Source of the DNA: an uncultured Eubacteriales bacterium
Lineage (GTDB): Bacteria > Bacillota > Clostridia > Oscillospirales > Oscillospiraceae
Direction: 5' to 3'
Assembly (NCBI GenBank): GCA_900316255.1
Contig: ONCI01000019.1
Location: 1 to 44,695 of the forward strand
Length of the DNA: 44,695 nucleotides
The stretch's first letter is position 1. Every line of letters starts with the position of its first letter. The notes beneath the pieces were generated by a model. That model ran no database searches. It was not told the origin of the DNA and saw nothing but the letters and a program-made list of their open reading frames with translations. The translations under genes and the position numbers were made by a program. Of this stretch, positions 478 to 42,612 are shown piece after piece.

Positions 478-549
478 GTGAAGAGTGAAGAGTGAAAAGT
501 GAAGAGTGAAGAGTGAAGACTGAAAAGTGAAGACTGAAAAGTGAAGAGT
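478..549 (+). repeat. Heptanucleotide tandem tract (AGTGAAG type)
   Basis: About ten tandem copies of a 7-base unit, AGTGAAG with variants AGTGAAA and ACTGAAA, start at the stop codon of the upstream gene. The purine-rich strand is the coding strand of that gene. Related tracts follow other genes in this window. Confidence 0.9.
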
Positions 550-611
550 TGTGGTGTCCCGCTTCGCGGGATGGATTTGATAAGGAACAAAATCCAATAG
601 ATTTCGTCTAC

Positions 612-646
612 AATCCGGTAGCTTCCCACATGGAAGATACCGGATT
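612..646. promoter_or_regulatory. Inverted repeat abutting the -35 box of the stator operon
   Basis: Arms AATCCGGTA and TACCGGATT (612-620, 638-646) enclose a second pair, CTTCC and GGAAG (622-626, 632-636), around a 5-base loop. The last base is the first base of the -35 hexamer. It could be an operator or a terminator of the upstream gene; it lacks a clear T-run. Confidence 0.5.
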
Positions 647-674
647 TGACACATTCTGCGCTTTTTGGTATCAT
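646..674 (+). promoter_or_regulatory. Sigma-A-type promoter of the MotA/MotB-like pair
   Basis: TTGACA at 646-651, a 17-base spacer and TATCAT at 669-674. Transcription would start near 681, about 23 bases before the start codon, with the Shine-Dalgarno GGGAGG in between. Confidence 0.8.
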
Positions 675-703
675 AGAAAAACCTAAGATGGGAGGGATAC
701 GCA

Positions 704-1648
704 ATGATCAATCTTTCCAACATGCCCACCGCCGGCCTGGTGGTCATGATCGTGATCGGACTGCTGTTTGTGCTTTCTCTGCTGCTGCTGTTCCACGTCT
801 ATCTGCGCTACAAGCTGCTGGCGGGCAAGGCCAAGGGCGATCCGGAAAAGGTGCGGGGCTTCCGGGCCGCGGTGCTGGAGGAGTATACCAACGCCTACCG
901 GAAGTACGGGCAGGACACCAATACCCCCGCCATCATCTCCGACACCGTGGGGGCCAAGCTCTCGGGGCTGTTGTTCTGCGAGCGCTTTTTGAACAACGCC
1001 GTGTCCCTCTTCGTGACCCTGGGCCTCTTCGGCACCTTCCTGGGCCTGAGCATCTCGGTGGCCTCGCTGACCGAGCTGCTGCGCTACTCCAATGGGGAGG
1101 ACTGGCTCTCCGTGATGGACAGCGTGGGCGGCGGACTGCTGTCGGCCCTGTCCGGCATGGGCGTGGCCTTTTACACCTCCCTGGTGGGCGCGGGCTGCTC
1201 CATTTTGCTGACCATTCTGAAAACGATCTTCAATCCCCAGGCCGCCCGGGAGCAGATGGAGACCCGGATGGAGCTGTGGCTGGACACCGAGGTGGCCCCG
1301 GAGCTGTACACCGAGGCTGCCAAGAACGACTCCGACCTGGTGCGCCGCATGATCGCGGCCCTGAAGTCCGCTTCCGATGACTTCGGCGCCGCCGCCAAGG
1401 GAGCCTCCCTGGCCCTGGTCCAGGCCGCCAAGGAGAACCGGGACGCCATCGCCGGCTGGGACAGGAGCCTGGAGAAATTCAACGACGGCGTCCACGATTT
1501 CGCGGAGGTGGACTACAACCTGCGCGGCAGCGTGGAGCGTATGGACCTGGCGGTGCGGGACCTGGCCGGCGCCATGCGGGAGATCAACCGCCGCATGGAG
1601 GGCGGAAGCAAGTCCCAGGAAGGCGGCAAGCATGAGAAGGCAGTTTAA
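704..1648 (+). CDS. MotA/TolQ/ExbB-type proton-channel subunit
   Basis: A 314-residue protein with a hydrophobic segment near residues 10-34 and two more near 98-122 and 143-172, the arrangement of the MotA/TolQ/ExbB channel core. The segment LFVTLGLFGTFLGLS and the glycine-rich GGGLLSALSGMGVAFYTSL match the conserved channel helices of that family. The region after residue 180 is hydrophilic and predicted helical and may form a cytoplasmic tail. The ATG follows GGGAGG at a good distance. The next gene overlaps it by 17 bases and encodes the matching MotB/OmpA-type partner, so the two probably form an ion-driven 5:2 stator-like complex. No flagellar, Tol or TonB genes are nearby. ZorA of Zorya defence systems is another member of this superfamily, but no zorC, zorD or zorE is present. 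Confidence 0.8.
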   Translation: MINLSNMPTAGLVVMIVIGLLFVLSLLLLFHVYLRYKLLAGKAKGDPEKVRGFRAAVLEEYTNAYRKYGQDTNTPAIISDTVGAKLSGLLFCERFLNNAVSLFVTLGLFGTFLGLSISVASLTELLRYSNGEDWLSVMDSVGGGLLSALSGMGVAFYTSLVGAGCSILLTILKTIFNPQAAREQMETRMELWLDTEVAPELYTEAAKNDSDLVRRMIAALKSASDDFGAAAKGASLALVQAAKENRDAIAGWDRSLEKFNDGVHDFAEVDYNLRGSVERMDLAVRDLAGAMREINRRMEGGSKSQEGGKHEKAV

Positions 1649-3600: not shown

Positions 3601-3624
3601 GGATCGTCTGTTTGCTGTTTCCTT

Positions 3625-3654
3625 ATCACTTTTCGCTCTTCACTCTTCTCTTTT
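3625..3654 (-). repeat. Heptanucleotide tract (AGTGAAG type) at the 3' end of the LysR gene
   Basis: Degenerate AGTGAAG/GCGAAAA units abut the stop codon of the LysR gene. The purine-rich strand is again the coding strand. Confidence 0.75.
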
Positions 3655-4599
3655 CTACAGTCCCCACAGGCCGGACTGCCTGCGGCAGAGGGCGATGAAG
3701 TCCAGCACCGCCGGGGAGCGATAGCCGCTCTCCAGAAAGGCGATGGCCAGGGCGCCCATGCTCCCCTCCCCGGTCAGGGGGAAGAGGTCCAGGGAGCTTC
3801 CCTCCCCGCCCAGGTCGGCGTGGAGGGCGCGGAGGAAGAGCTCCGGATACACGGTGATGCCCATGCCCTCCTGGGAAAGGGCGAGGGCGGTCTCGATGTT
3901 CTCCGTCTCCAGCAGCACGCGGGGCAGAAAGCCCACGCTGCGGGCATGGTGCTCCAGCATGGCGCGAATGCGGTTGCCGGTTTTCAGGAGAATGAAGGGC
4001 TGGCCGGAGAAGAGCCGGATGTCCGCTCCCTCCTGCCGGGCGCGGCGGATGGCCTCCCCGTCCCCGCCGAAGACCTCCAGGGAGAAGGGCCGGGGACAGG
4101 CCAGAAACAGCCGCTCCCGCAGCAGCACGGAGACCTGGGCCCCCTGCACGTCGATGGGCATATAGCCGATGAGCACGTCGATCTCCCCCTGGCGCAGCCA
4201 CTCGTTGAGCTGGCGGTGGTTGCCCTCCATGAGGCTGATCTCCACAAGGGGGTGGCTTTTGCAGAACTCTGGCAGCAGCACCGGCAGCATGGCCCGGCCG
4301 CAGGTGTAGGACACGCCCAGGCGCAGCCGGCCCCGGCGGTGGTCGCTGATCTCCCCGGCCTCCCGCAGGATCTCCTGCTCCAGGGAGCAGATCTGCCGGG
4401 CGATGAGGGCCAGGCGCTCGCCGGCGTAGGTGAGCTTCAGCTCCGGTCCCCGCTCGAAGAGGGGGACGCCCAGCTCCTCCTCCAGCTTCGCCACATGGCC
4501 GGAGAGGGACTGCTGGGAAATATAGAGCCGCCGGGCCGCGTGGGTGAAGTTCTTTTCCTCCGCCGCGGCGAGGAAGTATTGCAGATTGCGAAAATTCAT
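3655..4599 (-). CDS. LysR-family transcriptional regulator
   Basis: A 314-residue protein starting MNFRNLQYFLAAAEEKNFTHAARRLYISQQSLSG when read through, which is the winged helix-turn-helix of LysR regulators (residues 1-60). A periplasmic-binding-protein-like effector domain follows from about residue 90. I chose the ATG at 4599 because GGAGG lies six to seven bases upstream; a GTG eight codons earlier lacks a ribosome site. The gene diverges from the korDABC operon, the usual layout for a LysR regulator and its target, so it probably controls 2-oxoacid oxidation in response to a pathway metabolite. Its own promoter carries a palindrome in the spacer, which suggests autorepression. The effector cannot be read from the sequence. 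Confidence 0.9.
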   Translation of the reverse strand: MNFRNLQYFLAAAEEKNFTHAARRLYISQQSLSGHVAKLEEELGVPLFERGPELKLTYAGERLALIARQICSLEQEILREAGEISDHRRGRLRLGVSYTCGRAMLPVLLPEFCKSHPLVEISLMEGNHRQLNEWLRQGEIDVLIGYMPIDVQGAQVSVLLRERLFLACPRPFSLEVFGGDGEAIRRARQEGADIRLFSGQPFILLKTGNRIRAMLEHHARSVGFLPRVLLETENIETALALSQEGMGITVYPELFLRALHADLGGEGSSLDLFPLTGEGSMGALAIAFLESGYRSPAVLDFIALCRRQSGLWGL

Positions 4600-4655
4600 A
4601 GTCCGCCTCCATAAGGGACTCACTCTTCCCTCTTCCCTCTTCTCTTTTCCCTTTC

Positions 4656-9121: not shown

Positions 9122-9308
9122 ATGGGCCCTTCGGGGTCGTCATGGCGTGCCGCGAAGCGGCACGGATCGTCCTTCCCCCAGCGGGGGAAGGTGTCAGCTG
9201 CCGTCTCGCGGAAGGCGGCTGACAGATGAGGGAGAAAGGGGAACAGAAGATTCTCCCTCATCACCCCCAGTGTGCGCACTGGGGGAGCTTCCCCCGCTGG
9301 GGGAAGCA
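9122..9308. repeat. REP-like palindromic units
   Basis: The 253-base gap between the CoA-transferase and the next gene holds GTGCCGCGAAGCGGCAC, a CCTTCCCCCAGCGGGGGAAGG hairpin followed by a unit with GTCAGC/GCTGAC arms, and a second unit around CCCCCAGTGTGCGCACTGGGGG. They may act as terminator or processing sites. No small gene is supported. Confidence 0.7.
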
Positions 9309-9367
9309 CATGCTTCACTGTTCACATTTATCACCGACTGCGCCCGACGCAGAGAAAGGATACTACC

Positions 9368-10465: not shown

Positions 10466-10501
10466 GAGATATTCGGAATTCGGAATGATCCACGCCCAAA
10501 G

Positions 10502-10632
10502 CCTTCTCCTTGAGTAAACGATGATGAAATCGGCGAGAGCAGATTGCGAGAGAATTTGCGTTCTGATGATGGCACTTTTTTGCAGGAATACTTTGTGTAT
10601 TGCAAGAAAAAAGCGTTTACTTGAGGAGAAGG
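10502..10632 (-). repeat. MITE-like inverted-repeat element, copy 1
   Basis: Terminal arms CCTTCTCCTTGAGTAAACG (10502-10520) and its near complement at 10614-10632 enclose an A/T-rich core with CACTTTTTTGCAGGAATAC. Orientation is opposite to copies 2-4, and part of one internal arm is deleted. It lies between convergent genes. Confidence 0.85.
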
Positions 10633-14929: not shown

Positions 14930-15144
14930 GCAAAGGCTGGAGAGTCATCGGTACCATCGTGGTGATCCTGGCGCTGCTGGGCGCCATCTGCATCGGCGTC
15001 GGCTTTATCACCGGCGGCGATATCGGCGATATCTATTCTACCCTCAATGTCCGCTACAATCTCATCGGACACTGGGAGCAGTATTCCAACTGGGCCCTGA
15101 CCACGCTCAAGAATATCGCAGTGGGGGTGCGGGGACTCTGGTGA
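14926..15144 (+). CDS. Small membrane protein, unknown
   Basis: A 72-residue protein whose ATG overlaps the stop of the preceding gene (ATGA), with GGAGG seven bases upstream. One strong transmembrane helix at residues 8-30 (IGTIVVILALLGAICIGVGF) is followed by a polar tail with several aromatic residues. The coupled start suggests it works with the upstream multi-span protein. I do not recognise the family. Confidence 0.75.
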   Translation: MSKGWRVIGTIVVILALLGAICIGVGFITGGDIGDIYSTLNVRYNLIGHWEQYSNWALTTLKNIAVGVRGLW

Positions 15145-15166
15145 TCCCGGGATCACGGAGGATGCC

Positions 15167-18384: not shown

Positions 18385-18402
18385 AGAGAGAAGAGAATAG
18401 CT

Positions 18403-27934: not shown

Positions 27935-28180
27935 AGCTTTTAGTTTTTAGTTTCTAGTTTTTAGCTTAATGTTTTTTGCTTTTACAACGTGTCGGCAAAG
28001 TCCAAAACACGTTATTGCGAGTCGGTGCGCATACTGGCGAGGACAGCGGAGCGGATCAAAAGCAACAACAAGGTCAAGTGAGTTTTGCGTTTTGAGAAAA
28101 GAACGAGGGCCGGTGTAGCGCAACGGCCCTCATCGTAAGATAAACGCAACTCTAAAAACTAAAAACTAGAAACTCAAAAC
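27930..28180. repeat. Inverted pair of TTTTTAG heptanucleotide tracts around a hairpin-containing spacer
   Basis: Tracts at 27930-27965 and, inverted, 28151-28180 bracket the gap between convergent genes. The spacer holds a GAGGGCCG/CGGCCCTC hairpin (28105-28131). It also holds a 19-bp copy (28069-28087) of the 3' end of the neighbouring gene in inverse orientation. Confidence 0.85.
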
Positions 28181-29431: not shown

Positions 29432-29473
29432 GGAAACACTCCTTTCAAAAACCGGGATATTATATCAATCTAC

Positions 29474-29502
29474 ATTATAACGCTCCGTTTCGGGACTGTA
29501 AA
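29474..29502 (-). promoter_or_regulatory. Promoter of the heptapeptide-repeat protein gene
   Basis: Minus-strand TTTACA (plus 29497-29502), 17-base spacer, TATAAT (plus 29474-29479). AAGGAG lies close to the ATG at 29431. Confidence 0.85.
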
Positions 29503-29527
29503 GCAACAAAACGGTAAAAAAGAGTGC

Positions 29528-29556
29528 TTGTCAAAGCTGTGAAAAACGGGTATTGT
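29528..29556 (+). promoter_or_regulatory. Promoter of the AlkZ-related gene
   Basis: TTGTCA (29528-29533), 17-base spacer, TATTGT (29551-29556). This places the start codon downstream of 29563. Confidence 0.7.
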
Positions 29557-29581
29557 GGAGGAAGAAAGAAAAGGAGGGATC

Positions 29582-30259
29582 ATGATGCAGATTCCGACGC
29601 TCCGCTCCCCGGAGGATGTGCGGGAGACGGTGCAGCGCCTGGGCTTTTTGCCCTTCTTCCGCAATGAGATCCCCGGCTTCTCCATCGAGGAGCATACACC
29701 CCCGGCCCTGTGGTTCACGGAGATTCCCGGCCCCTGGGAGTGGAAGGGCGAGCTGGCAAGGGACAGGGACCTGATCTACGGCAAGTTTTTCCGGGGCCGG
29801 GCGGGCTTCCTCCGCCGGGACTGGTTCGCCGTCTTTGCCAATTACCGGCGGGACGGCTATGACTTCGACGCCCGCTTTGACGACGGCCTGGCCTCCCTGC
29901 GGGACAAGAGCCTCTATGACGTCGCGGCGGAGCGGGGCAGTTTAAGCTCCAAAGAGCTGAAGGTCCTGGCGGGCTACGGCAAGGGCGGGGAAAAGGGCTT
30001 TGACGGCCGCGTCACCCGCCTGCAGATGCAGACCTATCTGCTCATCAGCGACTTTGTCTACGCCCTGGACCGTTACGGGCGGGAGTACGGCTGGGGCATC
30101 GCCTGCTATGCCACACCGGAGCACCGCTTCGGGGAGGACTGGCTGGCGGAGGCCTACCGGGAGGACCCGGCCAGGTCAAAAGAGCGGGTCTATGCCCATC
30201 TGCAGGGGCTGTTCCCGGAGGCCTCGGAGAAGCAGCTCCGCCGCCTGCTGGGAGACTGA
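29582..30259 (+). CDS. AlkZ-related protein, unknown function
   Basis: A 225-residue soluble protein. Two adjacent ATGs (29582, 29585) follow AAGGAGG; the second has better spacing. Conserved-looking stretches are LGFLPFFRNEIPGFSIEEH, PGPWEWKGELARD, YGKFFRGRAGFLRRDWFAVFANYRRDGYDFDAR in read-through order, and VTRLQMQTYLLISDF. This resembles a Firmicutes family that databases label AlkZ-related, after a DNA glycosylase family, but I see no proven active site. Treat the function as unknown. It has its own promoter. Confidence 0.7.
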   Translation: MMQIPTLRSPEDVRETVQRLGFLPFFRNEIPGFSIEEHTPPALWFTEIPGPWEWKGELARDRDLIYGKFFRGRAGFLRRDWFAVFANYRRDGYDFDARFDDGLASLRDKSLYDVAAERGSLSSKELKVLAGYGKGGEKGFDGRVTRLQMQTYLLISDFVYALDRYGREYGWGIACYATPEHRFGEDWLAEAYREDPARSKERVYAHLQGLFPEASEKQLRRLLGD

Positions 30260-30312
30260 GGCGAGGAGAATTCGGAATGGAACGGAAGATGGGGCCCTAA
30301 TCTAAAATCTAA

Positions 30313-30471
30313 GTAAACGCTGATCAAATCGCCTGCGGCGCCTCCCGGACAATTTGTGCTCTGATTTCGTCACTTTTTCTTGCAATACACAAAGTATTCC
30401 TGCGAAAAAGTGCCTTCATCAGAACTCAAATTCTCTCGGGATTCGCTCTTGCCGATTTCATCATCGTTTAC
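30313..30471 (+). repeat. MITE-like inverted-repeat element, copy 4
   Basis: Starts GTAAACGCTGATCAAATCG and ends GATTTCATCATCGTTTAC, with the central CACTTTTTC...GAAAAAGTG hairpin. It lies between convergent genes. Confidence 0.9.
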
Positions 30472-30493
30472 CTAAAAACTGGAAACGAAAAAC

Positions 30494-30541
30494 GAAAATG
30501 AAATGGGATGTGAAAACTGCTTTTCACATCCCATTTCGTTT
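30494..30541 (-). terminator. Intrinsic terminator of the antiporter gene, overlapping its stop codon
   Basis: A 17-bp perfect stem GAAATGGGATGTGAAAA (30500-30516, 30521-30537) with a four-base loop. On the minus strand it is followed by CATTTTCG. The arm starts two bases after the stop codon. Confidence 0.75.
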
Positions 30542-31832
30542 ATCTGCCCTGTCGGGCGGCTGCCAGCTTCCGCTCCCGGCGGTGCAGCACGTCCTCGCTC
30601 TTGGGTTTGATGTCGCCCGCCTTGGTGAGGGCCCACTTGGTCATCACGGGACCGGCCAGCTCATACACCAGCACGGCGAAGAGCACGATGTTGCGGATCA
30701 GAGGACCGTCCCCAGGCAGCTGGGCGGCGGTGACGCACATGCCCAGGGCCACGCCCGCCTGGGGCCAGAGGGTGATGCCCAGGTACTTGGTCACGGTGGG
30801 GCTGCAGTGCATCATTTTGGCAGACTCCCGGGCGCCGAAGTACTTGCCCAGGCAGCGGGAGAGGATGTACACCAGCCCGATGATGACGGAACTGAGCCTG
30901 GCGAAGACGCCCAGCTCCAGCTCCGCGCCGGAGAGCACGAAGAAGAGGACCATCAGGGGGGAGGACCACTTGTCCGCCCGCTCCATGATCTCATCGGACA
31001 GGGGGCAGAGGTTGCAGAAGACGCTGCCCAGCATCATGCACACCAGCAGGGGAGAAAAGCCCATGCTGGCCCGGCCCAGGGGCAGCTCCAGCTTGGCGAG
31101 AGCCACCGTCAGGAACACAAAGCCGATGGTCATGGCTACGCGGTTGCGGTTGGAGTGGAAGAGCCGCTCCAGCAGCGTCAGCACCCAGCCGGCGATGGCG
31201 CCCAGAATCAGGGAGCCCAGGATCTCCAGCAGGGGGTTCACCACCACGGAGATCATGTCCACGGTGCCGCTGCCCAGCGCCTCGGCAATGCCGAAGGACA
31301 CGGCAAAGAGCACCAGGCCCACGGCGTCGTCCAGCGCCACGATGGGCAGCAGCAGGTCCGTAAGGGGACCCTTGGCCTTGTACTGGCGCACCACCATCAG
31401 CGTGGCGGCAGGGGCGGTGGCGGCGGCGATGGCGCCCAGGGTGATGGCGGCGGGGAGGCTCAGCACCTCCGGAGCCGCCAGGTGGATCAGCACCAGGGAC
31501 AGGTCTACCACCACGGTGGTGAGCACGGCCTGAAGGATGCCGACGACCATGGCCTGCTTGCCGGTCTCCCGCAGCTGGGAGAGGCGGAACTCGTTGCCGA
31601 TGGAAAAGGCGATGAAGCCCAGGGCCACGTCGGAAATGAGGCCCAGATTCCGCAGTTCCTCATAGCTGCCGAAGCCCAGACCGGGGATGTGCAGCAGCCC
31701 GATGAGGCTGGGGCCGATGAGTACGCCCGCCACCAGGTAGGCGGTGACGTCCGGCAGGCGCCAGCGGTTCATCACACGGGTCATCATCAGACCCGCAAAG
31801 ATCGCGACGGAAAGAGACAAAAGCTCTGTCAT
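30540..31832 (-). CDS. Cation:proton antiporter, CPA2 family
   Basis: A 430-residue membrane protein with about 12 hydrophobic segments. I chose the ATG at 31832 because AAGGAG precedes it. LPDVTAYLVAGVLIGPSLIG near residue 25 and LLLPIVALDDAVGLVLFAVSFG hold the signatures of CPA2 antiporters (NapA/KefB type), the latter with the paired Asp-Asp of the ion-binding site. It would exchange Na+ or K+ for H+. No TrkA-N nucleotide-binding domain follows, so it is NapA- rather than KefC-like. A long leader with a possible internal terminator precedes it. Confidence 0.88.
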   Translation of the reverse strand: MTELLSLSVAIFAGLMMTRVMNRWRLPDVTAYLVAGVLIGPSLIGLLHIPGLGFGSYEELRNLGLISDVALGFIAFSIGNEFRLSQLRETGKQAMVVGILQAVLTTVVVDLSLVLIHLAAPEVLSLPAAITLGAIAAATAPAATLMVVRQYKAKGPLTDLLLPIVALDDAVGLVLFAVSFGIAEALGSGTVDMISVVVNPLLEILGSLILGAIAGWVLTLLERLFHSNRNRVAMTIGFVFLTVALAKLELPLGRASMGFSPLLVCMMLGSVFCNLCPLSDEIMERADKWSSPLMVLFFVLSGAELELGVFARLSSVIIGLVYILSRCLGKYFGARESAKMMHCSPTVTKYLGITLWPQAGVALGMCVTAAQLPGDGPLIRNIVLFAVLVYELAGPVMTKWALTKAGDIKPKSEDVLHRRERKLAAARQGR

Positions 31833-31926
31833 ATGTATCAACTCCTTTGAAAGCGCCACGCTATTGTATGCTTCCGAAGGGCAAAATGCAAGAGCCATTT
31901 CTTATACAATTCAGCGTTTTTTTGGC

Positions 31927-32058
31927 AAAAAAAGCGGCGGACCGCTGCGCGATCCGCCAAAACAGGTTTGTGGGATAAAGATATGAGCCGATCTTCCCTC
32001 GGAAGACCCATTGGATAAGCTGTGCCTATACCATAATCCTTTGCCGGGTTTTTGTAAA
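31927..32058 (-). promoter_or_regulatory. Possible terminated leader or small RNA upstream of the antiporter gene
   Basis: On the minus strand TTTACA (plus 32053-32058) and TATGGT (plus 32030-32035) are 17 bases apart. About 95 bases after the expected start there is a GC-rich hairpin with GGCGGA/TCCGCC arms followed by CGCTTTTTTT (plus 31927-31958), that is, an intrinsic terminator about 95 bases before the start codon. A second hairpin, GGTCTTCC with GGAAGATC, lies in between. It could be a riboswitch or attenuator for ions, or an independent small RNA. I do not recognise a known class. Confidence 0.45.
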
Positions 32059-32190
32059 GAGCGAAGGAGCACCAGTTTTGTCGAAACGGTTTTTTCGCAT
32101 AAAAAAGTGTTCCGCGGGCAAACTAAGGCCGTTAACATGACCGCGCCCGTCCTCACCTGGGCGCTTGCGGCAAGAGAGGAGAGTTTCATC

Positions 32191-32397
32191 ATGATCATGG
32201 ATCGCATCGCCCTGAGTCTGGCCATCATCGGCGGGATCAACTGGGGCAGCGTGGGCCTGTTCCGCTTTGACCTGGTTGCCTGGCTCTTCGGCGGCCAGAC
32301 GGCAACGGTGAGCCGGGTGATCTACACCCTGGTGGGCCTGTCGGCCATCTGGTGCATCTCGCTGCTGTTCCGCAGCGACGCCGTTACGGATGAATAA
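32191..32397 (+). CDS. DUF378 family small membrane protein
   Basis: A 68-residue protein with two hydrophobic segments, starting MIMDRIALSLAIIGGINWGS and containing VGLFRFDLVAWLFGG, the DUF378 signature (GGINWGxxGxFxFDLVA). AGAGGAGAG precedes the ATG; an earlier in-frame start has no ribosome site. Function is unknown, and it is often a lone gene. A strong terminator overlaps its stop codon. Confidence 0.9.
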   Translation: MIMDRIALSLAIIGGINWGSVGLFRFDLVAWLFGGQTATVSRVIYTLVGLSAIWCISLLFRSDAVTDE

Positions 32398-32432
32398 GGA
32401 AAAGCCACCCGCGGGCGGGTGGCTTTTCCTTA
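32396..32432 (+). terminator. Intrinsic terminator after the DUF378 gene
   Basis: Arms AAGGAAAAGCCACCCGC and CGGGTGGCTTTTCCTT with a T-containing tail. Confidence 0.85.
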
Positions 32433-32435
32433 TTC

Positions 32436-32534
32436 AGTTTCTAGTTTTTAGTTTCTAGTTTTTAGGGGAGGGAAACCGAGTGCGGCAGCGTTTCGACTGC
32501 CTCCCCTAGAAACTAAATTCTAAAAACTAAAAAC
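32436..32534. repeat. Inverted pair of TTTTTAG heptanucleotide tracts
   Basis: Tracts at 32436-32464 and, inverted, 32506-32534 flank about 40 bases bounded by AGGGGAGG and CCTCCCCT. They fill the gap between convergent genes, with the T-rich strand sense for each gene. Confidence 0.88.
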
Positions 32535-33362
32535 TCACTTAAACCGGAGGCGGGGGCGGTAGAATTCGAAGATCACGGCGTCCCGGCCGGCTTCGTTTTC
32601 CTGCCCGTGGGAGGTCCAGCCGAATTTCAGGGCGCCCAGCCGCTCCGACAGGCGCACGATCAAAGGCCGGGGACCGATCTTGTAGGCGATGAACTGGGGC
32701 CGGGCGAGGCAGTTCAGCAGGCAGCGGCTGAGGAGAAAGGCCTGGGCCTTGCCCCGGCCGTCCTTGGTGTACTCCTCCATGGGGGCTGCCAGCTGGCCCC
32801 GCAGAAGCTGAGGGGCGTGGCGGCGGAACCAGGCCACGATCCGGGGGTCAAAGCTCTCGATGCACACCTCTCCCCGGTAGCCCTCCAGCAGGGCAAGGGT
32901 CTTCTCGCAGAGCTCCCGGTTCCGGGGGCCGGTCTTCAGCTCCACCAGCAAGGGACCGCGGCCGCCGAAGACTTCCAGCACCTGGGAGAAGAGGGGGATG
33001 TGCTGCTCCGTGCCGCAGAGGGACATCTGCCGCAGCTGCTCATAGGGGAAGGCGTCCACCCGACCGTGGACCGAGCAGACCCGGTCCAGGGTGTCGTCAT
33101 GGAAGACCACCACCTGGCCGTCCTGGGAAAGCTGCACGTCCAGCTCCACGCCATAGCCCGCCTCTTCCGCCAGACGGAAGGCCTCCAGGGAGTTTTCCGG
33201 CACGGACTTGTCCGCCCGGTGCAATCCCCGGTGGGCAAAGTTCCAGCCCAGGAAGGGGGCCTTCTGCGCCTTGCCGGCCCGGCCGGGAGCGGCCAGGAAT
33301 ACCGGCAGGGTCACGGCTGCCGCCGCGCCCAGAATGAGACCGAGAGCTGTTTTCTTCTTCAT
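32535..33362 (-). CDS. Glycerophosphodiester phosphodiesterase (GDPD family)
   Basis: A 275-residue protein. I chose the ATG at 33362; an in-frame TTG three codons earlier is too close to GGAGG. A short N-terminal hydrophobic segment (TALGLILGAAAAVTLPVFLAA) is probably a signal anchor. The TIM-barrel GDPD signature follows: FAHRGLHRADKSVPENSLEAF with the catalytic His and Arg, VELDVQLSQDGQVVVFHDDTLDR with the metal-binding Glu, Asp and second His, and VELKTGP. It hydrolyses glycerophosphodiesters to glycerol-3-phosphate and an alcohol. It lies 33 bases behind the MFS transporter gene, so the two probably act on one nutrient or lipid product. Confidence 0.9.
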   Translation of the reverse strand: MKKKTALGLILGAAAAVTLPVFLAAPGRAGKAQKAPFLGWNFAHRGLHRADKSVPENSLEAFRLAEEAGYGVELDVQLSQDGQVVVFHDDTLDRVCSVHGRVDAFPYEQLRQMSLCGTEQHIPLFSQVLEVFGGRGPLLVELKTGPRNRELCEKTLALLEGYRGEVCIESFDPRIVAWFRRHAPQLLRGQLAAPMEEYTKDGRGKAQAFLLSRCLLNCLARPQFIAYKIGPRPLIVRLSERLGALKFGWTSHGQENEAGRDAVIFEFYRPRLRFK

Positions 33363-33395
33363 GGCATTCAAATCCTCCGATACAGCGAAGTGGGA

Positions 33396-34859
33396 TCAGT
33401 CGTCCGCGCCCAGGGCTTCCAGGCCGGTGACGTTGGCCACCTTGCCGGCCTTGATGTTCTTGACCAGGCTGGTAAAGACCGTGCAGCTCAGCAGCGTCAG
33501 GATGCAGGCGTATACCGGCAGGGCCCGCCAGGCCATGGCGGCCTTCAGCACCAGACCCAGCAGCACGGGGGTAACGGTCTGGGCGGACATGCTGGCCGCG
33601 TAGTAGAAACCGGTGAAGCGGCCGATCTTCTTGGCCGAGCACAGCTCTACCACCATGGGGAAGGAGCAGTTGTGTACCAGAGCCATGCCGAAGCCCTTCA
33701 GCACCCAGACCACATAGAGCAGGGCGGGGAAGGTGTACTCTCCGTGGGCCGCCCCGGCGGAGACGCTGTTGGTGGGCCGCACGAAGCACATGACGATCAG
33801 GCCCGCAAAGGTGATCATGAGGCCGGTGGAGATGGTCCATTTCCTGCCTACCTTTTCGGCGATGGAGCCGGCGATGGCAAAGCCGATCACGGAGGCCAGG
33901 CCGCCCAGGATGGTCAGGATCATGGTGGCGCTGGAGACGGATTTCAGATAGTAGATGACGTAGTTGCCGATGTAGGTGCCGAGGGCGTTGTCGCTCATGA
34001 ACCAGAGGAACTCCGCCCCCAGGATAGCCAGGAGCATGTTCCGGTTGGCCTTGGACATGGGCTTGTCGTCGTCAATGGGGGTCTCTACGGCGGCAAGCTG
34101 CTCGCCCAGGGCCAGCTCATCCTTCAGCTGCTCGGCCAGCTCGTTTTCCTTGATGGTCTTGAAGAGCACCAGGGCGGAGATCACCATCAGCACCGAGGCG
34201 ATGATGAAGGGCAGCTCGATGGTCCAGATGTTCCGGTCCTCGGGCCGGGCGTTGATGTAGTTGGAGAGCACCATGAAGATGCCCAGGACTGTGGCGAAGG
34301 CGCCGCCGAAGTAGCCCATGATGTTGATGATGCCGTTGGCCTTGGCCCGCAGAGGCTTGGGGGTGATGTCCGGCATCAGGGCCACGGCGGGATTGCGGTA
34401 CATCATCATGAAGATCAGCACGATCACCATGGTGATGATCATGCCAGCGATGTTGTTGCGGTGAAAGAACAGGGGGATGAAGGGGAAGGCCACCGCGGAG
34501 ACGAAGGTGCCTACCAGGATATAGGGCATGCGCTTGCCGATGGGGGTCCTGGTCTTGTCGGAGAGGCTGCCGAAGATGGGCAGCAGGATCAGAGCGGCCA
34601 GGTTGTCGCAGGCCATGATGATGCCCACGATCCACTGCACGTTCAGGATCTTGTCCGGGTCGCTGGCCTTCAGCTCGGCAGAGGTCATGCCGTAGATGTG
34701 ATGGGCGAAGATATCCGTCAGAAAGGTGGGGCACCAGGAGTCATACACCTGCCAGAGCAGCAGGATGCCGAAGAAGGCAAAGCCGATGAGGGCCGTGCGC
34801 CGTACGTTGAGCTTCAGGCCGCCGTTGATCGGGCCCTCCGCCGTCTTTTTCTTGAACAT
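33396..34859 (-). CDS. MFS transporter, GPH/SLC45-like sugar:cation symporter type
   Basis: A 487-residue protein with about 12 hydrophobic segments. I chose the ATG at 34859 (MFKKK) since AAAGGA is eight bases upstream; an ATG three codons earlier overlaps the ribosome site. IFGSLSDKTRTPIGKRMPYI is the loop 2-3 motif (GxLSDxxRTxxGKRxP) of GPH and SLC45-type symporters. A hydrophilic central loop is rich in Glu and Asp. It may import a glycoside or glycerophosphodiester; the GDPD gene downstream suggests a link. Substrate is unknown. Confidence 0.85.
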   Translation of the reverse strand: MFKKKTAEGPINGGLKLNVRRTALIGFAFFGILLLWQVYDSWCPTFLTDIFAHHIYGMTSAELKASDPDKILNVQWIVGIIMACDNLAALILLPIFGSLSDKTRTPIGKRMPYILVGTFVSAVAFPFIPLFFHRNNIAGMIITMVIVLIFMMMYRNPAVALMPDITPKPLRAKANGIINIMGYFGGAFATVLGIFMVLSNYINARPEDRNIWTIELPFIIASVLMVISALVLFKTIKENELAEQLKDELALGEQLAAVETPIDDDKPMSKANRNMLLAILGAEFLWFMSDNALGTYIGNYVIYYLKSVSSATMILTILGGLASVIGFAIAGSIAEKVGRKWTISTGLMITFAGLIVMCFVRPTNSVSAGAAHGEYTFPALLYVVWVLKGFGMALVHNCSFPMVVELCSAKKIGRFTGFYYAASMSAQTVTPVLLGLVLKAAMAWRALPVYACILTLLSCTVFTSLVKNIKAGKVANVTGLEALGADD

Positions 34860-34916
34860 TTGGATCATCCTTTCCCGATGGCTTTCCCACAGAAGGGACG
34901 CCTTGCTGATGGCTGT

Positions 34917-34945
34917 ATTTTACTCCCTTTCCCGGCGCTTGTAAA
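34917..34945 (-). promoter_or_regulatory. Promoter of the MFS-GDPD operon
   Basis: Minus-strand TTTACA (plus 34940-34945), 17-base spacer, TAAAAT (plus 34917-34922). Confidence 0.75.
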
Positions 34946-34963
34946 CGGCGGGATGAAAAAAGA

Positions 34964-35023
34964 GGGAGGATAACACCTCATCCGTCATCCGCCTCGCGGG
35001 AGATCGGCGGATGCCACCTTCGC
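34964..35023. repeat. REP-like unit
   Basis: Short version of the family with ATCCGCCTCGCGGGAGATCGGCGGAT arms as an imperfect hairpin. It abuts the next MITE-like element. Confidence 0.6.
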
Positions 35024-35167
35024 CTCAAGTAAACGATGATGAAATCGGCGAGAGCAGATTGCGAGAGAATTTGCGTTCTGATGATGGCACTTTTTTGCAG
35101 GAATACTTTGTGTATTGCAAGACAAGATGCCGATGACGATTTGATCAGCGTTTACTCAAGGAGAAGG
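35017..35167 (-). repeat. MITE-like inverted-repeat element, copy 5
   Basis: Core GTAAACGATGATGAAATCG at 35029 to the complementary arm ending at 35155, with the CCTTCTCC-type outer arms of copy 1. Orientation is as in copy 1. A different internal segment is deleted. Confidence 0.88.
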
Positions 35168-35197: not shown

Positions 35198-35233
35198 GTC
35201 TCCTAAAAACTAAAAACCAGAAACTAAAAACTA
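35198..35233 (-). repeat. TTTTTAG heptanucleotide tract at the MarR gene end
   Basis: Complement of TTTTTAG/TTTCTGG units running into the stop codon; the T-rich strand is sense for the MarR gene. Confidence 0.8.
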
Positions 35234-35671
35234 TTTCTCGTCGCACTCCGGCATCAACTCGTTGGAAATGATCTGGAACATCTCGTCCAGCTTCTGGGTA
35301 TCCTCGGGAGAGAAGCGCTCCTTCATGCGCTCCACCACCTTCTGCTCGTAGTTGGTGAACATGCGCAGATAGGAATAGTACTTCTCCGAGAGGATCAGAT
35401 GATACTCCCGCCGGTCCACCTGGGAGTTGGCCCGCTCCAGATAGCCTTTTTTGATCAGGTTGTTGACCTTGTAGGTGGCGTTGGACTGGGAGATGTTCAG
35501 GAAATCTGCAAACTCGCTGACCGTAGGCTCGCCCAGGATCTGGATGACCTCCAGGGAGAAGCCCTCCATGGCGGAGAGAGAGCCGTCCCGCTCCCGCACA
35601 TGCTCGAACACCTTGCGGTAGAACTGCAGCTTGAACTTATCATAAACCTCCAGAAAGCTCTTTTCCAGCAT
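35231..35671 (-). CDS. MarR-family transcriptional regulator
   Basis: A 146-residue winged-helix protein. PTVSEFADFLNISQSNATYKVNNLIKKGYLER in read-through order is the helix-turn-helix, and SQVDRREYHLILSEK is the wing with the conserved Asp-Arg-Arg. AAGGAG precedes the ATG. A promoter is readable upstream. It lies between the MFS-GDPD operon (same strand) and divergent hrcA. Its target may be the MFS-GDPD operon, but a MITE-like element and 370 bases separate them. Confidence 0.88.
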   Translation of the reverse strand: MLEKSFLEVYDKFKLQFYRKVFEHVRERDGSLSAMEGFSLEVIQILGEPTVSEFADFLNISQSNATYKVNNLIKKGYLERANSQVDRREYHLILSEKYYSYLRMFTNYEQKVVERMKERFSPEDTQKLDEMFQIISNELMPECDEK

Positions 35672-35936: not shown

Positions 35937-37037
35937 ATGGCAATCAGTGAGAGGAAAAAGAAAATACTGGCGGCGGTGGTGGATGAATACATCCGCACGG
36001 CAGAGCCGGTAGGCAGCAAGGCCATCGCCCAGAGCGGCGGGCTGAACTGCTCCTCGGCCACCATCCGCAACGAGCTGGCGGAGCTGGTCGCCATGGGCTA
36101 TCTGGAGCAGCCCCACACCTCTGCGGGCCGGGTGCCCACCCCCATGGGCTACCGCATGTACGTCAACGAGCTCATGGAGAAGCAGAAGATGAGCCTGGAG
36201 GAGACGGAGGAGATGAACCGCCGCCTGAACCAGAAGCTCCAGGAGCTGGACAACACCATCCGGGACGTGAGCAAGCTGGCCTCCCAGCTGACGAATTATC
36301 CCGCCCTGGCCCTGACGGCCCAGAGCTCCGTCACGGTAAAGCGCTTCGACCTGATCTATGTGGACGCCAACAACTTCATCATCGTGCTGATGCTGTCCAA
36401 CAACAGCGTAAAGAGCAAGCTGGTGCATCTGCCGCTGTCCGTGGACCAGGACATGATCAAGCGCCTTTCCACCCTCTTCAACGCCAGCTTTACCGGCGTG
36501 GAGGATCACCAGATCACGCCGACCCTGATCCACGCCACCGAGCGGGCGGCGGACGATTCCCTGGGCCTCACGGCGGTGATCTCCTCCTTCGTGATGGAGG
36601 TCCTCAGCGAGGCCAACACCCCCACCGCCTTCCTCTCCGGCGAGAACCGGCTGCTGAACCAGCCGGAGTTCCGGGACCCGGACAAGGCGCACAGGCTCAT
36701 GAGCTACCTCTCCGGCGGAGGCTACATCCTCCCCGCGGCGGAGAGCCTGGGCGGCAGCGACGAGGTGCGGGTCCTCATCGGACCGGAAAACGTGGCCGAG
36801 GAGCTGAAGGATTCCAGCGTGGTCATCGCCAGCTACGACGCCGGGGACAACACCCGGGGCCTGATCGGCGTGGTGGGACCCACCCGGATGGACTATTCCG
36901 CCGTGGCCGCCAAGCTCAGCTTCCTGGCAGCGAGCCTGAGCCGCCGCCTGGGCGGAGGCGATGCGCCTCCCGAGGGCATGCACAACAAACTCATCATCAA
37001 GGAGATAGATGACGGACATGAACGAAGAAAAGGATAA
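35937..37037 (+). CDS. hrcA: Heat-inducible transcription repressor HrcA
   Basis: A 366-residue repressor of class I heat-shock genes that binds CIRCE. The N-terminal winged helix has RKKKILAAVVDEYIRTAEPVGS and SSATIRNELAELVAMGYLEQPHTSAGRVPT in read-through order, the HrcA hallmark. The central GAF-like domain and C-terminal dimerisation region (YDAGDNTRGLIGVVGPTRMDY) are present. I chose the ATG at 35937, directly after the extra CIRCE half-site and GGAGAG. HrcA of this operon represses its own synthesis and is folded by GroEL in other species. Its end overlaps grpE. Confidence 0.95.
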   Translation: MAISERKKKILAAVVDEYIRTAEPVGSKAIAQSGGLNCSSATIRNELAELVAMGYLEQPHTSAGRVPTPMGYRMYVNELMEKQKMSLEETEEMNRRLNQKLQELDNTIRDVSKLASQLTNYPALALTAQSSVTVKRFDLIYVDANNFIIVLMLSNNSVKSKLVHLPLSVDQDMIKRLSTLFNASFTGVEDHQITPTLIHATERAADDSLGLTAVISSFVMEVLSEANTPTAFLSGENRLLNQPEFRDPDKAHRLMSYLSGGGYILPAAESLGGSDEVRVLIGPENVAEELKDSSVVIASYDAGDNTRGLIGVVGPTRMDYSAVAAKLSFLAASLSRRLGGGDAPPEGMHNKLIIKEIDDGHERRKG

Positions 37038-37641
37038 GATGGACGCCGCAGCCGAGACCGAGAGCCAGCCCGATCAAGTGCGGGAGGAGCCCAAGGCCGG
37101 AGAACCGGCGGAGAACAAGAGCGACAAAAAGGAAGACAAGAAGGAAGACAAGAAGGAAAAGCGCTTCGGCAAGAAGAAGGAGGACGAGCGGGCCGCTCTG
37201 GAGGCGGAGAAGGAAGCCCTGGAGAAGGATAAGGCCGCCCTCAACGACAAGTACCTGCGCATCTGCGCCGAGTATGACAACTTCCGCCGCCGCAGCCAGA
37301 AGGAAAAGGACAATCTCTACGGCGAAATCAGGGCCAACACCGTGCAGCAGTTCCTGCCGGTGTACGACAACCTGGAGCGGGCCCTGAAGCAGGGCACCGA
37401 GGACGAGGCCTACCGCAAGGGCGTGGAGATGATCATGACCCAGTTCAACGCCACCCTGGAAAAGCTGGGCGTGAAGAAGATCGAGAGCCTGGGCCAGACC
37501 TTTGATCCCAACAAGCACAACGCCGTCATGCATGTGGACGACGAAAGCCTGGGAGAGAACACCATCGTGGAGGTCTTCCAGGAGGGCTTTACCGTAGGCG
37601 ATAAGGTGATCCGCTTCGCCATGGTAAAGGTGGCAAATTAG
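37009..37641 (+). CDS. grpE: Nucleotide exchange factor GrpE
   Basis: A 210-residue cochaperone that releases ADP from DnaK. The ATG at 37009 lies inside the end of hrcA after AAGGAG. Residues 1-80 are highly charged (Lys, Glu, Asp runs) and probably disordered or coiled. The typical core follows: YLRICAEYDNFRRRSQKEK and the C-terminal beta wing HVDDESLGENTIVEVFQEGF and GDKVIRFAMVKVA. The stop codon TAG is the beginning of a TTTTTAG heptamer tract. Confidence 0.95.
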   Translation: MTDMNEEKDKMDAAAETESQPDQVREEPKAGEPAENKSDKKEDKKEDKKEKRFGKKKEDERAALEAEKEALEKDKAALNDKYLRICAEYDNFRRRSQKEKDNLYGEIRANTVQQFLPVYDNLERALKQGTEDEAYRKGVEMIMTQFNATLEKLGVKKIESLGQTFDPNKHNAVMHVDDESLGENTIVEVFQEGFTVGDKVIRFAMVKVAN

Positions 37642-37681
37642 TTTTTAGTTTCTAGTTTCTAGTTTTTAGTTTTTTAGCTTG
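37641..37681 (+). repeat. TTTTTAG heptanucleotide tract between grpE and dnaK
   Basis: Five to six units, starting in the grpE stop codon, within the operon. The T-rich strand is sense. It would put an AU-rich, structure-poor segment in the message. Confidence 0.9.
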
Positions 37682-39572: not shown

Positions 39573-39577
39573 GTGAA

Positions 39578-39665
39578 GAATGTGTAGGGGCTGGCGTCCT
39601 CGACAGCCCGTTCCCTACAAGCCATCTGTTTCCAGCGGGCCGTCCGGGAGGCCGGCCCCTACAGA
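39578..39665. repeat. GTAGGGG-type palindromic repeat between dnaK and dnaJ
   Basis: The 188-base spacer carries TGTAGGGGCTGGCGTCC, GGGCCGTCCGGGAGGCC and CCGGCCCCTACAGATCC, which form an outer inverted repeat (TGTAGGGGC / GCCCCTACA). The rest up to the dnaJ ribosome site (GGAGAAG) shows nothing clear. Confidence 0.7.
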
Positions 39666-39760
39666 TCCTCTTTTCACTCTCACAATCTTTCCCCCACACT
39701 ATCACGCCACTGAGCTGAGGAGCAATCCTCAGCTCGTGGTGCGTATCAAGGAGAAGTCCC

Positions 39761-40923: not shown

Positions 40924-41131
40924 CTGCGGATCGCCGCACCGGTGACGGATGTCATCGGCGCGGCGATCCCAAGCTGTCGACAAAGTGTCGACAGCTTGAA
41001 ACGCCAAAATGGAAACTTCCGAAAAAGTTCCCATTTTGGCATAGATTGAACGTGAAGGGGGGCATACCATAGGTTTGTCTACAGTCTGCGGATCGCCGCA
41101 CCAGTGACGGATGTCATCGGCGCGGCGATCC
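40924..41131. repeat. Direct repeat pair bracketing two palindromes after dnaJ
   Basis: The same 46-bp sequence, starting CTGCGGATCGCCGCACC and ending CGCGGCGATCC, occurs at 40924-40969 and 41086-41131 with one difference. Each copy is itself a hairpin (GGATCGCCGC / GCGGCGATCC). Between them lie AAGCTGTCGACA-AAG-TGTCGACAGCTT (40971-40997) and a second hairpin with GCCAAAATGG arms (41003-41040). The last copy runs into TTTTT and can serve as terminator. No gene is visible. Confidence 0.9.
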
Positions 41132-41179
41132 GTTTTTATGTGAAATTTCAAAAAAATACCACAAGATTAGTTAAATTTC

Positions 41180-41208
41180 TTGTAATTTCCCGATGGATAA
41201 GGTACAAT
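41180..41208 (+). promoter_or_regulatory. Promoter of the E2-like gene
   Basis: TTGTAA (41180-41185), 17-base spacer, TACAAT (41203-41208). Confidence 0.75.
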
Positions 41209-41242
41209 ACAAACTCGGAATCCACAAAAGAGGAGGAGCCCC

Positions 41243-42133
41243 ATGGAGGAACAGTACAAGAAACGCTTTGGCGACCGGAGAGACGCCCGCTGGGTGCGGG
41301 ACGTGCCCGGGCTCACCACGGTGATGATGCATATCATGCCCCAGCGCACCGACGCCGAGGTCTATCTCAACGACAAGATCGACGTGACGGAACTGCTGCA
41401 ATACCTGGAAAAGAAGAACGCGGAGCATCCGGACTACAAGACCACGGTGTTCCACTGCTTCATCGTGGCCATCGCCCGCATGATCCGGGAGCGGCCCAAG
41501 ATGAACCGCTTCATCCAGGGCCGGCGCATGTACGAGCGCAATGACATCAGCCTGAGCTTTGTGGCCAAGCGCCGCTTTACCGACCATGCCGAGGAGGCCC
41601 TCATGTTCTTCACCCCCAAGGATGAGGACACCCTGGACACGCTGAGCTACCGCATCGCGGGCCAGGTGAAGGAGACCAAGAGGAGCGAGCACTCCACCGG
41701 CGGCATCGACGCCACCGTGGACGCCTTTGCCAGGATCCCCCGCCTGCTGCTGATGCTGGCCATCCGCATCATCCGCTATCTGGACTTCTGGGGCGTGAAC
41801 CCCAAGGCCCTCACCGACGGGGACACCAACTATTCCACCGTGCTGCTCTCGAACCTTGGCAGCATCAAGGGCCCGGCGGTCTACCACCACCTGAACAACT
41901 ACGGCACCAACAGCATCATGGTCACCATCGGCACCATCCACAAGGAGGAGATGGTGATGGAGGATGGCAGCAAGCAGATCCGGGACGTGGTGGAGATCGG
42001 AGCCACCCTGGACGAGCGTATTGCCGACGGCTTCTACTTCGTGCGGAGCCTGAAGCTGCTGAAGCACGTCTTCGCCAATCCCGAGCTGCTGGATCAGCCC
42101 ATCGGCCAGCCCAGCGGGTTTGAGTACAAATAA
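41243..42133 (+). CDS. 2-oxoacid dehydrogenase E2-like acyltransferase domain protein lacking the catalytic His
   Basis: A 296-residue protein corresponding to the CAT-like catalytic domain of E2 acyltransferases, without lipoyl or E1/E3-binding domains. The segment NYSTVLLSNLGSIKGPAVYH and the following YGTNSIMVTIG match the E2 core. The family active-site motif DHRxxDG reads DERIADG at residues 257-263: Glu258 replaces the catalytic His while Asp262 and Gly263 remain. A hydrophobic insertion (RLLLMLAIRIIRYLDFWG, about 166-184) may contact the membrane. No E1 or E3 gene is near, and an acyl-CoA ligase gene follows on the same strand. It may act on acyl-CoAs by another mechanism or be non-catalytic. 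GAGGAG precedes the ATG. Confidence 0.8.
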   Translation: MEEQYKKRFGDRRDARWVRDVPGLTTVMMHIMPQRTDAEVYLNDKIDVTELLQYLEKKNAEHPDYKTTVFHCFIVAIARMIRERPKMNRFIQGRRMYERNDISLSFVAKRRFTDHAEEALMFFTPKDEDTLDTLSYRIAGQVKETKRSEHSTGGIDATVDAFARIPRLLLMLAIRIIRYLDFWGVNPKALTDGDTNYSTVLLSNLGSIKGPAVYHHLNNYGTNSIMVTIGTIHKEEMVMEDGSKQIRDVVEIGATLDERIADGFYFVRSLKLLKHVFANPELLDQPIGQPSGFEYK

Positions 42134-42612
42134 AGAAGGATGAATGGTGAAGAATGAAAACTGAAGAATTATGGTATCCCCTGCGGCGATAGATGCTTAT
42201 TTGTCCGCGGCGCGGACACCATCATTCTTCTTTCTTCAGTTTTCAGTATTCACTTTTCATTTCCCTATAAGAGAATCCCCCAGTCAGCATGACGGCTGAC
42301 AGCGTCCGCCTTGCGGTGCCCGAAAAACGCTGCGGGCTCACGCTGTTCCTTGCGTTTTTCGACCGCTGCGGATATTCCGGCTTTGCTTCTTCTGCCACCG
42401 GCAGCGCAAAGCCGCAATCCCCTTTAGGCAAGGGGGCCAAAATGGAAGGAGACCCCTCAGTCTGACGCCTTGCGTGAGACGGCGTCAGACAGCTCCCCTT
42501 CACAGGGGAGCCTATAAGGAAAGGAGTACCCCTCAGTCACGGCGCTTGCGTGAGACGCACCGTGACAGCTCCCCTTAGGCAGGGGAGCCTATATGGAAGG
42601 AGTTATTGTAAT
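42134..42612. repeat. Repeat-filled gap: AGTGAAG tract pair and REP-like units
   Basis: An AGTGAAG-type tract (42134-42165) follows the stop codon, and its inverse lies at 42222-42262. Then come REP-like units at about 42280-42320, 42448-42513 and 42528-42594, the last two ending in ACAGGGGAGCCTATAAGGA and GCAGGGGAGCCTATATGGA. GGAAAGGAG or GGAAGGAG follows each of these. No gene is supported. Confidence 0.8.

Follow-up and report, generated by a model that had tools for sequence, protein, structure and literature searches.

Period-7 tandem arrays behind stop codons in an uncultured Oscillospiraceae genome: putative arms of small intergenic inverted-repeat units

Why should short tandem repeats keep to one position and one strand with respect to genes? 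The question is raised by a stretch of 44,695 nucleotides from an uncultured Eubacteriales bacterium (contig ONCI01000019.1, the whole of which is referred to here as the window), in which 7-base units are repeated in tandem at or just behind stop codons. The original prediction, made from the letters of the window, distinguished a T-rich class (TTTTTAG/TTTCTAG) and a purine-rich class (AGTGAAG/AGTGAAA), both on the coding strand of the gene just ended, and suggested either a role in 3' processing, mRNA stability or transcription-translation, or insertion by an element that targets stop codons. The answer that we favor, and to which we give about half of our confidence, is that the tracts are arms of small intergenic inverted-repeat units that persist mostly behind stop codons, and do not constitute a 3'-end code as such. 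With 62% G+C, the window makes up contig C58 of genome G000 (2.7 Mb, 136 contigs, 96% complete). It was analyzed along with stretches of 8 congeneric genomes containing 113 arrays, which we call the genus sample; gene ends in every position test are those of a home-made gene caller and not of an annotation.

Intergenic DNA of the window, taken as 26 stretches that total 7,933 nt with their flanks, contains 11 period-7 arrays, as against none in 200 dinucleotide-preserving shuffles (coordinates in Table 1). Of the 11 window arrays with a Tandem Repeats Finder (TRF) score of at least 36, nine lie on the sense strand within 40 nt of a gene 3' end, the exceptions being those at 4623-4652 and 42235-42259. 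The latter had also been set aside originally as a tract (42222-42262) without an adjoining minus-strand gene, a difficulty that disappears once it is recognized as the right arm facing 42134-42169; the former, AGGGAAG ahead of a LysR-type gene, stands as an exception to the polarity rule. All eight T-rich tracts were recovered by TRF where they had been noted, while in the purine-rich class only 477-549 (plus strand) is strong, 3618-3655 and 42148-42169 are weak, and those at 18384 and 39572 are traces recognized by eye. As for stop codons believed to form part of the first unit, that of the ymxH-like gene does lie inside its array, whereas that of grpE (37639-37641) is a TAG preceding the first full unit. 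The ten genes flanking the arrays belong to varied families, one being without a match. In a scan for terminator-like hairpins that covered positions 15000-34999, the arrays at 15649, 27929 and 32436 were seen to begin in such a hairpin or at its foot. An assembly artefact is unlikely, because separate assemblies of other species carry arrays at the same sites.

The non-random position and orientation extend far past the window, and random simple expansion fails to account for them. A genome-wide regular-pattern search for three units gave 23 forward and 13 reverse matches with TTTYTAG, 17 and 8 with AGTGAAR (overlaps included), and none with the controls. Of the tandem arrays in 443,635 bp of G000 that have 3 or more copies and reach a score of 40 in TRF, 25 have period 7; other periods, mostly multiples of 3, account for at most 5 cases each. 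Likewise, in 581 post-stop regions of the 8 congeneric genomes a trinucleotide recurred four-fold 303 times over the spacings 4 to 12, 287 of them at spacing 7 and no more than 7 at each of the others; the trinucleotide most often found at a fixed spacing was AGT (38), followed by GAA (33). Most units of both supposed classes start with AGT when read on the AGT strand, and the separation into two classes is thus not upheld. In the first 100 arrays of the genus sample AGT is present in 87, in some rotation and on either strand, AAT only in 11, and neither in 2, to be compared with a background of 21% of all heptamers that contain AGT. Within arrays the first two positions vary least (A 3.1%, G 3.6%) and the last one most (16.9%). 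The copy number is 4.x in 60 of 111 arrays, but the search threshold disfavors arrays of 2-3 copies. Stretches of G000 itself were drawn from contigs with at least one known pattern match, those of G036, G030, G012, G060 and G027 lie mostly on contigs chosen for matches, and those of G021, G006 and G026 include sites orthologous to window arrays; since the stretches were partly selected by AGT-bearing patterns, both the density of arrays and the proportion of AGT words in the genus are inflated.

Only one of the 113 arrays of the genus sample lies inside a gene. For the analysis of polarity the strand of an array was defined as the one holding AGT (or AAT), and 2 arrays without strand call, the one in a gene and 4 at stretch ends were excluded. 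Where a 3' end is the nearest boundary, within 40 nt, 67 of 69 arrays are on the sense strand and point inward, that is, from the boundary into the gap, and 2 point outward; where a 5' end is nearest, within the same distance, 11 of 12 are antisense, which is again inward, and 1 is outward. Farther than 40 nt from the nearest boundary there are 14 inward and 11 outward arrays. The proposed link with the coding strand of the gene just ended therefore holds near 3' ends but is reversed near 5' ends. These counts follow a strand rule that was revised after the result had been seen, the AATTCCG arrays (AAT on both strands) being reassigned with AGTTCGG as guide; before the revision the counts within 40 nt were 64 inward and 5 outward at 3' ends, and 9 and 3 at 5' ends. 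As boundaries facing gaps of at least 60 nt are about equally common (488 at 5' ends, 464 at 3' ends), the arrays can be said to avoid gene starts, and the bias toward 3' ends may well stem from selection against arrays at 5' ends. The AATTCGG/AGTTCGG arrays (L098 12575, L101 12045, L119, L121, L124) form a further class, with a less regular placement and a nearly palindromic word.

The arrays are also polarized with respect to each other. In the genus sample, 20 of 20 pairs of opposite-strand neighbors within 300 nt, from 18 sites, are arranged face to face, with no outward pair; three of the 20 represent a single site that was seen in three species (window 32436, L312 2511, L314 1167), and 3 same-strand neighbors (all '++') fall outside this test. 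In 80 loci from other phyla, picked by the pattern AGTGAAN and rich in Prevotella-type genomes, all 30 called opposite-strand pairs face as well; they occur in 27 of the loci, and 24 of them include an AGTGAAN-selected array (17 neighbor pairs were uncalled, and 3 '++' and 7 '--' neighbors fall outside the test). Of the genes around the 20 genus pairs, 9 sets are convergent, 8 co-directional and 3 divergent; with 11 pairs between non-convergent genes, a coding-strand rule as such cannot be maintained, and what the arrays do is point from the nearest boundary into the gap. A looser partner pattern, scored under the unrevised strand rule, was found on the inner side of 38 of 111 arrays, on the outer side of 6 of 111, and in 27 of 316 other intergenic stretches. 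Strand and position both follow if the arrays are inward-facing arms of an intergenic DNA unit, and the 3'-end rule would therefore be a consequence.

The comparison of orthologous sites between sister species is informative about how the arrays change. As an example, between the same two flanking genes the left arm at 32436 reads AGTTTCT AGTTTTT AGTTTCT AGTTTTT in G000, AGTTTTT AGTTTCT GGTTTTT AGTTTTT in G021, and AGTTCGT AGTTCGT AGTTCGT AGTTCGC in G006; unit number and register are preserved in all three throughout 32436-32535, the right arms have also changed, and in G006 the array is retained behind the terminator-like hairpin with units devoid of T-runs. In 8 arm pairs aligned in equal register, 4 of which are two window arms each compared with two species, differences occur in 2 of 80 instances at unit positions 1-2 and in 39 of 96 at positions 5-7 (Fisher p = 2e-10, to be taken only as a guide, given the lack of independence among units of one arm and the double use of two window arms). 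Outside this comparison are the sites 477 and 3626 (octamer in G006), 15649/15787 (inverted), 39572 (remnant), and 27929, 35203 and 42133 (absent in a relative). At 477 and 3626 the heptamer AGTGAAR of G000 is represented in G006 by the octamer AATGAAGR. A three-unit search for this octamer in 60 genomes, overlapping matches included, gave 136 matches in G006 (for example at L386 2733-2815 and L387 7512-7554), 6 in G021, 2 in G036, and none in G000 and the other 56.

Between flanks that are colinear with G021 (81% and 94%), the segment 15649-15808 aligns with the opposite strand of that genome at 87%. The AGTTTGT unit belongs to the left arm in G000 but to the right arm in G021; the segment is an inversion whose ends lie inside the arms. 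At the grpE site G026 has the same array, G030 two AGTTTTC units and G006 a different hairpin element, and by eye there is no array in the other sequences compared, two of which are incomplete. At 39572 G006 has full arms and a double hairpin, and G000 and G021 an element GTAGGGGC...GCCCCTAC, which in G000 lies between arm remnants; at 42133 G021 carries other repeats. The site comparisons (477, 3626, 15649, 32436, grpE, 39572, 42133 and 35203) therefore indicate that array turnover is high, in that words and sites are replaced and not copy number alone. Separately, a GTAGGGGC(hairpin)GCCC family is found directly behind stop codons at window 39583-39670 and in the grpE-dnaK spacer of G006 (L134); it can occupy the place that another species' core takes between heptad arms.

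These results can be accommodated by a unit of the form (AGTNNNN)n - spacer or hairpin core - (NNNNACT)n, in which the AGT strand of either arm faces inward; single arms would be units whose partner was lost or was never present. Such units would persist mainly between a stop codon and the next promoter, where they would cost little because most words hold a stop and three 7-nt units offer one in each frame: a stop codon is present on the inward strand in 85 of 111 array words (26 have none), so that a gene running into an arm would usually end soon. Facing arms could pair as a cruciform or hairpin, in line with the predicted RNA folds and with the paired changes in the double-hairpin core that are given below. 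Breakage and repair between the arms of one unit would then invert the spacer, and between units would copy words, the arms being rewritten together; the outcome would be that each species has its own few words at many loci. We infer that arrays are rewritten when they recombine or undergo conversion with one another, a process that would start at hairpins or cruciforms. The AG start is retained while the suffix changes, which points to a sequence-specific reader or to a constraint of the copying process, although the octamer sites of G006 indicate that retention is not absolute. The provision of stop codons in three frames as the cause of the 7-base period was rejected in view of the 26 stop-free words and the 8-mers at two sites in G006.

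Several observations weigh against an interpretation of the arrays as arms. Outward orientation is seen in 14 arrays of the genus sample, of which 9 have a 3' end and 5 a 5' end as the closest boundary, at a distance of over 40 nt in 11 of the 14 cases; 2 further arrays are without strand call. About a third of the arrays have a detectable partner even by the looser test; single arrays are the majority, and an arm model must therefore treat them as remnants. The T of AGT (9.9%) is more variable than unit positions 4-6, and the constant part is therefore AG and not AGT; at 477 and 3626 G006 keeps neither AGT nor period 7. In other phyla AGT is not the leading trinucleotide, and once AGTGAAN words are removed it is present in 31 of 89 arrays, as compared with 21% of heptamers. 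With arrays masked, so that partner arms do not count, the inner flanks of the T-rich class resemble another flank in 6 of 42 cases, of which 4 come from the two sides of a single site. Finally, the search for an agent, which covered two protein families in G000, gave none.

Among the alternatives, one that we consider unlikely places the function in the RNA: heptads on the sense strand would serve in the 3' untranslated region as terminator tails, exonuclease barriers, protein sites or frame-independent stops. Predicted RNA folds are indeed more stable than those of shuffled sequences in 6 of 6 array regions (z from -2.7 to -6.9); folding is strong in AGTGAAN-type pairs, with arm-arm pairing in four such regions, and the terminator hairpin dominates two T-class regions. 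The sense orientation of nearly all arrays close to 3' ends, the stop codons that most words hold on that strand, and the three window arrays that start at terminator feet also agree with this explanation. It does not explain why arms are also antisense ahead of gene starts, why more than half of the facing pairs lie between non-convergent genes, or why a quarter or so of the words have no stop; moreover, close relatives have no arrays behind the same genes (grpE, 35203), the array of G006 at 32436 persists without T-runs in its units, and no Rfam family matches the window at the gathering threshold, a result on which a known RNA family was also rejected. A role of the T-rich tracts in 3' processing or termination at terminators, as first envisaged, is possible and is unnecessary for explaining strand or position.

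A second alternative, which we regard as equally unlikely, is a genome-wide replacement of words, in which a sequence-specific activity rewrites inverted arrays to a new unit, even of a new length, keeping sites and polarity. If so, species would differ by an array 'dialect', as with uptake signals or families of repetitive extragenic palindromes (REPs), but in tandem arrays, and the system would have counterparts in Bacteroidota, Xanthomonas and cyanobacteria. The rewriting of short arrays throughout a genome by one agent would amount to a new process. Should the cause instead be ordinary recombination between hairpin arms, it would account for a neglected part of bacterial intergenic DNA. 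A resident reverse transcriptase, for example one adding arrays in the manner of telomerase, was rejected on the grounds that G000 has no match to PF00078.

The third alternative, mobile elements akin to REPs or to miniature inverted-repeat transposable elements (MITEs), with a transposase favoring post-stop sequence and with heptads as terminal inverted repeats, is improbable in our estimate, even though part of the purine-rich class does flank a repeated core, in partial agreement with the original suggestion of an element inserting at stop codons. The core of the AGTGAAN class is often a double hairpin, AGTTATGGTGTCC-hairpin-GGATnnTAAT-hairpin-ATACCATAAC; in an alignment of nine cores 5 of the 14 predicted pairs have changed on both sides in at least one sequence (3 in hairpin 1, 2 in the outer helix, 0 in hairpin 2), and with arrays masked 26 of 57 AGTGAAN inner flanks resemble another. 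Empty sites in some relatives are likewise as expected from mobility. The T-class spacers are otherwise unique, some carrying terminator-like hairpins, and their masked inner flanks match another site in 2 of 42 cases; being so rarely alike, they argue that T-class arms are not the ends of one mobile element. Of the two protein families searched, the Y1 or REP-associated tyrosine transposase (RAYT; PF01797), of which 50 of 99 genomes have a match, and the reverse transcriptase (PF00078), neither has a match in G000 (96% complete), and mobilization of the RAYT/IS200 type was rejected for this reason.

Heptamers were the most abundant long simple-repeat class in most bacterial genomes surveyed in 2007, and polymerase slippage is their proposed, unproven cause (as related in PMC4679880 and PMC4692102). 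Neutral slippage of 7-bp units, confined to its places by exclusion from coding and promoter DNA, agrees with this idea, with the different unit numbers at 477 (10.4 in G000, 4.3 in G021) and with the predominance of period 7 behind stops, but it is very unlikely: it yields no polarity, while 50 of 50 called opposite-strand pairs face; it does not explain how dozens of loci come to share one word when a sister species has a different word at those loci; and it makes no change from 7-mer to 8-mer at separate sites. Facing polarity and unit replacement at orthologous sites thus argue against plain slippage as the sole cause.

A five-fold AGT at spacing 7 with any suffix is present in 31 of 99 genomes (G000 included) and 7 of 33 genera, in a search in which a control pattern also matched, presumably because AGTGAAN arrays repeat TGA as well; the majority of congeneric genomes are without a match. 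The words differ by species, for example AGTTCGT in G006, AGTGTGG/AGTTTGG in G057 and G059, AGTTGAG/AGTGGAG in G015, AGTTTAG and AGTGCAA in G079. Four-fold AGTGAAN occurs, among the matches listed, in many phyla, including Bacteroidota, Cyanobacteria, Acidobacteria, Campylobacterota, Nitrospirae, Planctomycetes and Clostridia. As regards a viral source of the arrays, the AGTGAAN pattern has matches in IMG/VR contigs, too. In the loci from other phyla 113 arrays had not themselves been selected by AGTGAAN; 55 of them contain AGT, 35 AAT only and 23 neither. The AGT start is strong in the genus and modest elsewhere.

The short tandemly repeated repetitive (STRR) sequences of heterocystous cyanobacteria, described by Mazel et al. 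in 1990, are reportedly multi-locus intergenic tandem heptamers. REPs are marked by a GTAG/GGAG tetranucleotide at the foot of a hairpin. By eye, GTAG/GGAG occurs in a separate neighboring element and is not part of the arrays. With 112 of 113 arrays outside genes, the repeat in a gene or promoter that characterizes phase-variable simple sequence repeats (SSRs) is not what we find here.

In kind, the arrays belong with published heptameric repeats. The closest are the GGGAATC / GGGGA(C/T)T SSRs of Xanthomonas and Nostoc (Rehm et al. 2015, PMC4692102), which share the period of 7, a mostly intergenic location, and an orientation on the coding strand within 50 nt after stops and on the non-coding strand before starts. 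They too occur as convergent pairs that face each other (Xcc has 70, Xac 75), and few lie between divergent genes; four units are preferred, and an association with mobile elements is generally lacking (PMC4692102). They differ in being G-rich and forming quadruplexes in vitro, a feature that the commonest units here, AGTGAAR and AGTTTTT, do not share, having no run of three G. A further difference is that here words and unit length are replaced between sister species and one spacer is inverted. The TAACTGA direct repeats of marine Beggiatoaceae, Cyanobacteria and Bacteroidetes (MacGregor 2015, PMC4679880) are also tandem, intergenic and scattered over phyla; in our reading their reverse strand rotates to AGTTATC, so that a forward repeat before a start has AGT antisense, as at 5' ends here. 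In contrast to the present arrays they lie, in the Beggiatoa genome, mainly beside start codons, with a proposed translational role, and the parts of that paper covered do not describe facing pairs (PMC4679880). The P6b stem of the Nostoc tRNA-Leu(UAA) intron holds heptads of Class I (TDNGATT) or Class II (NNTGAGT), and the authors conclude that Class I has repeatedly taken the place of Class II there (PMC4476775); this is one group I intron locus, as opposed to a genome-wide intergenic system. New as far as searched are the replacement of words and of word length at orthologous sites, the arm-bounded inversion, and a facing polarity that holds across several phyla independently of gene direction; a full-text literature search with six array strings, in which older literature is thinly covered, gave only two papers, both unrelated. 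A comparative handle on the process is offered by close relatives whose words differ at the same gene ends.

Table 1. Arrays, cores and adjoining genes in the window, in order of position.
Feature	Position	Strand	Remarks
AI-2E transporter gene	22-477		last stop-codon base is the start of the 477-549 array
Array AGTGAAR, 10.4 units	477-549	+	TRF score 111; 4.3 units in G021
Half double-hairpin core	about 545-590		3' of the 477-549 array
Weak AGTGAAR array	3618-3655	-	TRF score 34; behind LysR-type gene (3655-4599, minus)
AGGGAAG array	4623-4652	-	TRF; upstream of LysR-type gene; breaks polarity rule
MarR-type gene	15167-15613		precedes the 15649-15678 arm
Left arm AGTTTTT/AGTTTCT/AGTTTGT	15649-15678	+	TRF; in foot of terminator-like hairpin 15612-15654
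Spacer between the 15649 and 15787 arms	15679-15786	.	inverted relative to G021
Right arm AGTTTTT	15787-15820	-	TRF; contains stop codon of PRC-barrel (ymxH-like) gene 15815-16093, minus
Left arm AGTTTTT	27929-27984 (TRF 27929-27964)	+	after terminator-like hairpin 27897-27926; absent in G021
Right arm AGTTTTT	28152-28181	-	TRF; adjoins stop codon of gene 28181-29431, minus; AGTTTTG type in G021
Left arm AGTTTCT/AGTTTTT, 4 units	32436-32465	+	TRF; after terminator-like hairpin 32392-32435
Right arm, 4 units	32506-32535	-	TRF; adjoins stop of GDPD-family gene 32535-33362, minus
Single array AGTTTTT	35203-35233	-	TRF; at stop of MarR-type gene 35231-35671, minus; absent in G006
Single array AGTTTTT	37638-37674	+	TRF; starts in grpE stop codon (gene 37009-37641)
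AGTGAAR arm remnant	39573-39583	+	behind dnaK, beside GTAGGGGC...GCCCCTAC element
2-oxoacid dehydrogenase acyltransferase-family gene	41243-42133		precedes the 42134-42169 arm
Degenerate left arm	42134-42169	+	TRF 42148-42169 weak, score 30; absent in G021
Double-hairpin core TTATGGTATCC...GGACACCAT	42166-42222	.	RNA fold of 42130-42262, z = -6.1
Right arm facing 42134-42169	42235-42259	-	TRF; about 353 nt ahead of plus-strand gene

Two other kinds of repeat were noticed in the window. The minus-strand gene at 28181-29431 contains 8.5 copies of a 21-bp repeat (28993-29170) and chitobiase C-terminal/Fn3-associated domains; its product may be a variable surface protein. The other kind consists of intergenic repeats, dispersed and about 100-220 bp long, at 25565-25730, 34973-35134, 30309-30479, 40970-41068 and 42293-42452, with further ones at 2730-2952, 9163-9314, 10496-10614 and 18402-18586. 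In G021 and G006 they are present in many copies, for some of which the identity is as high as 98-99%; they are MITE-like families distinct from the heptad arrays.

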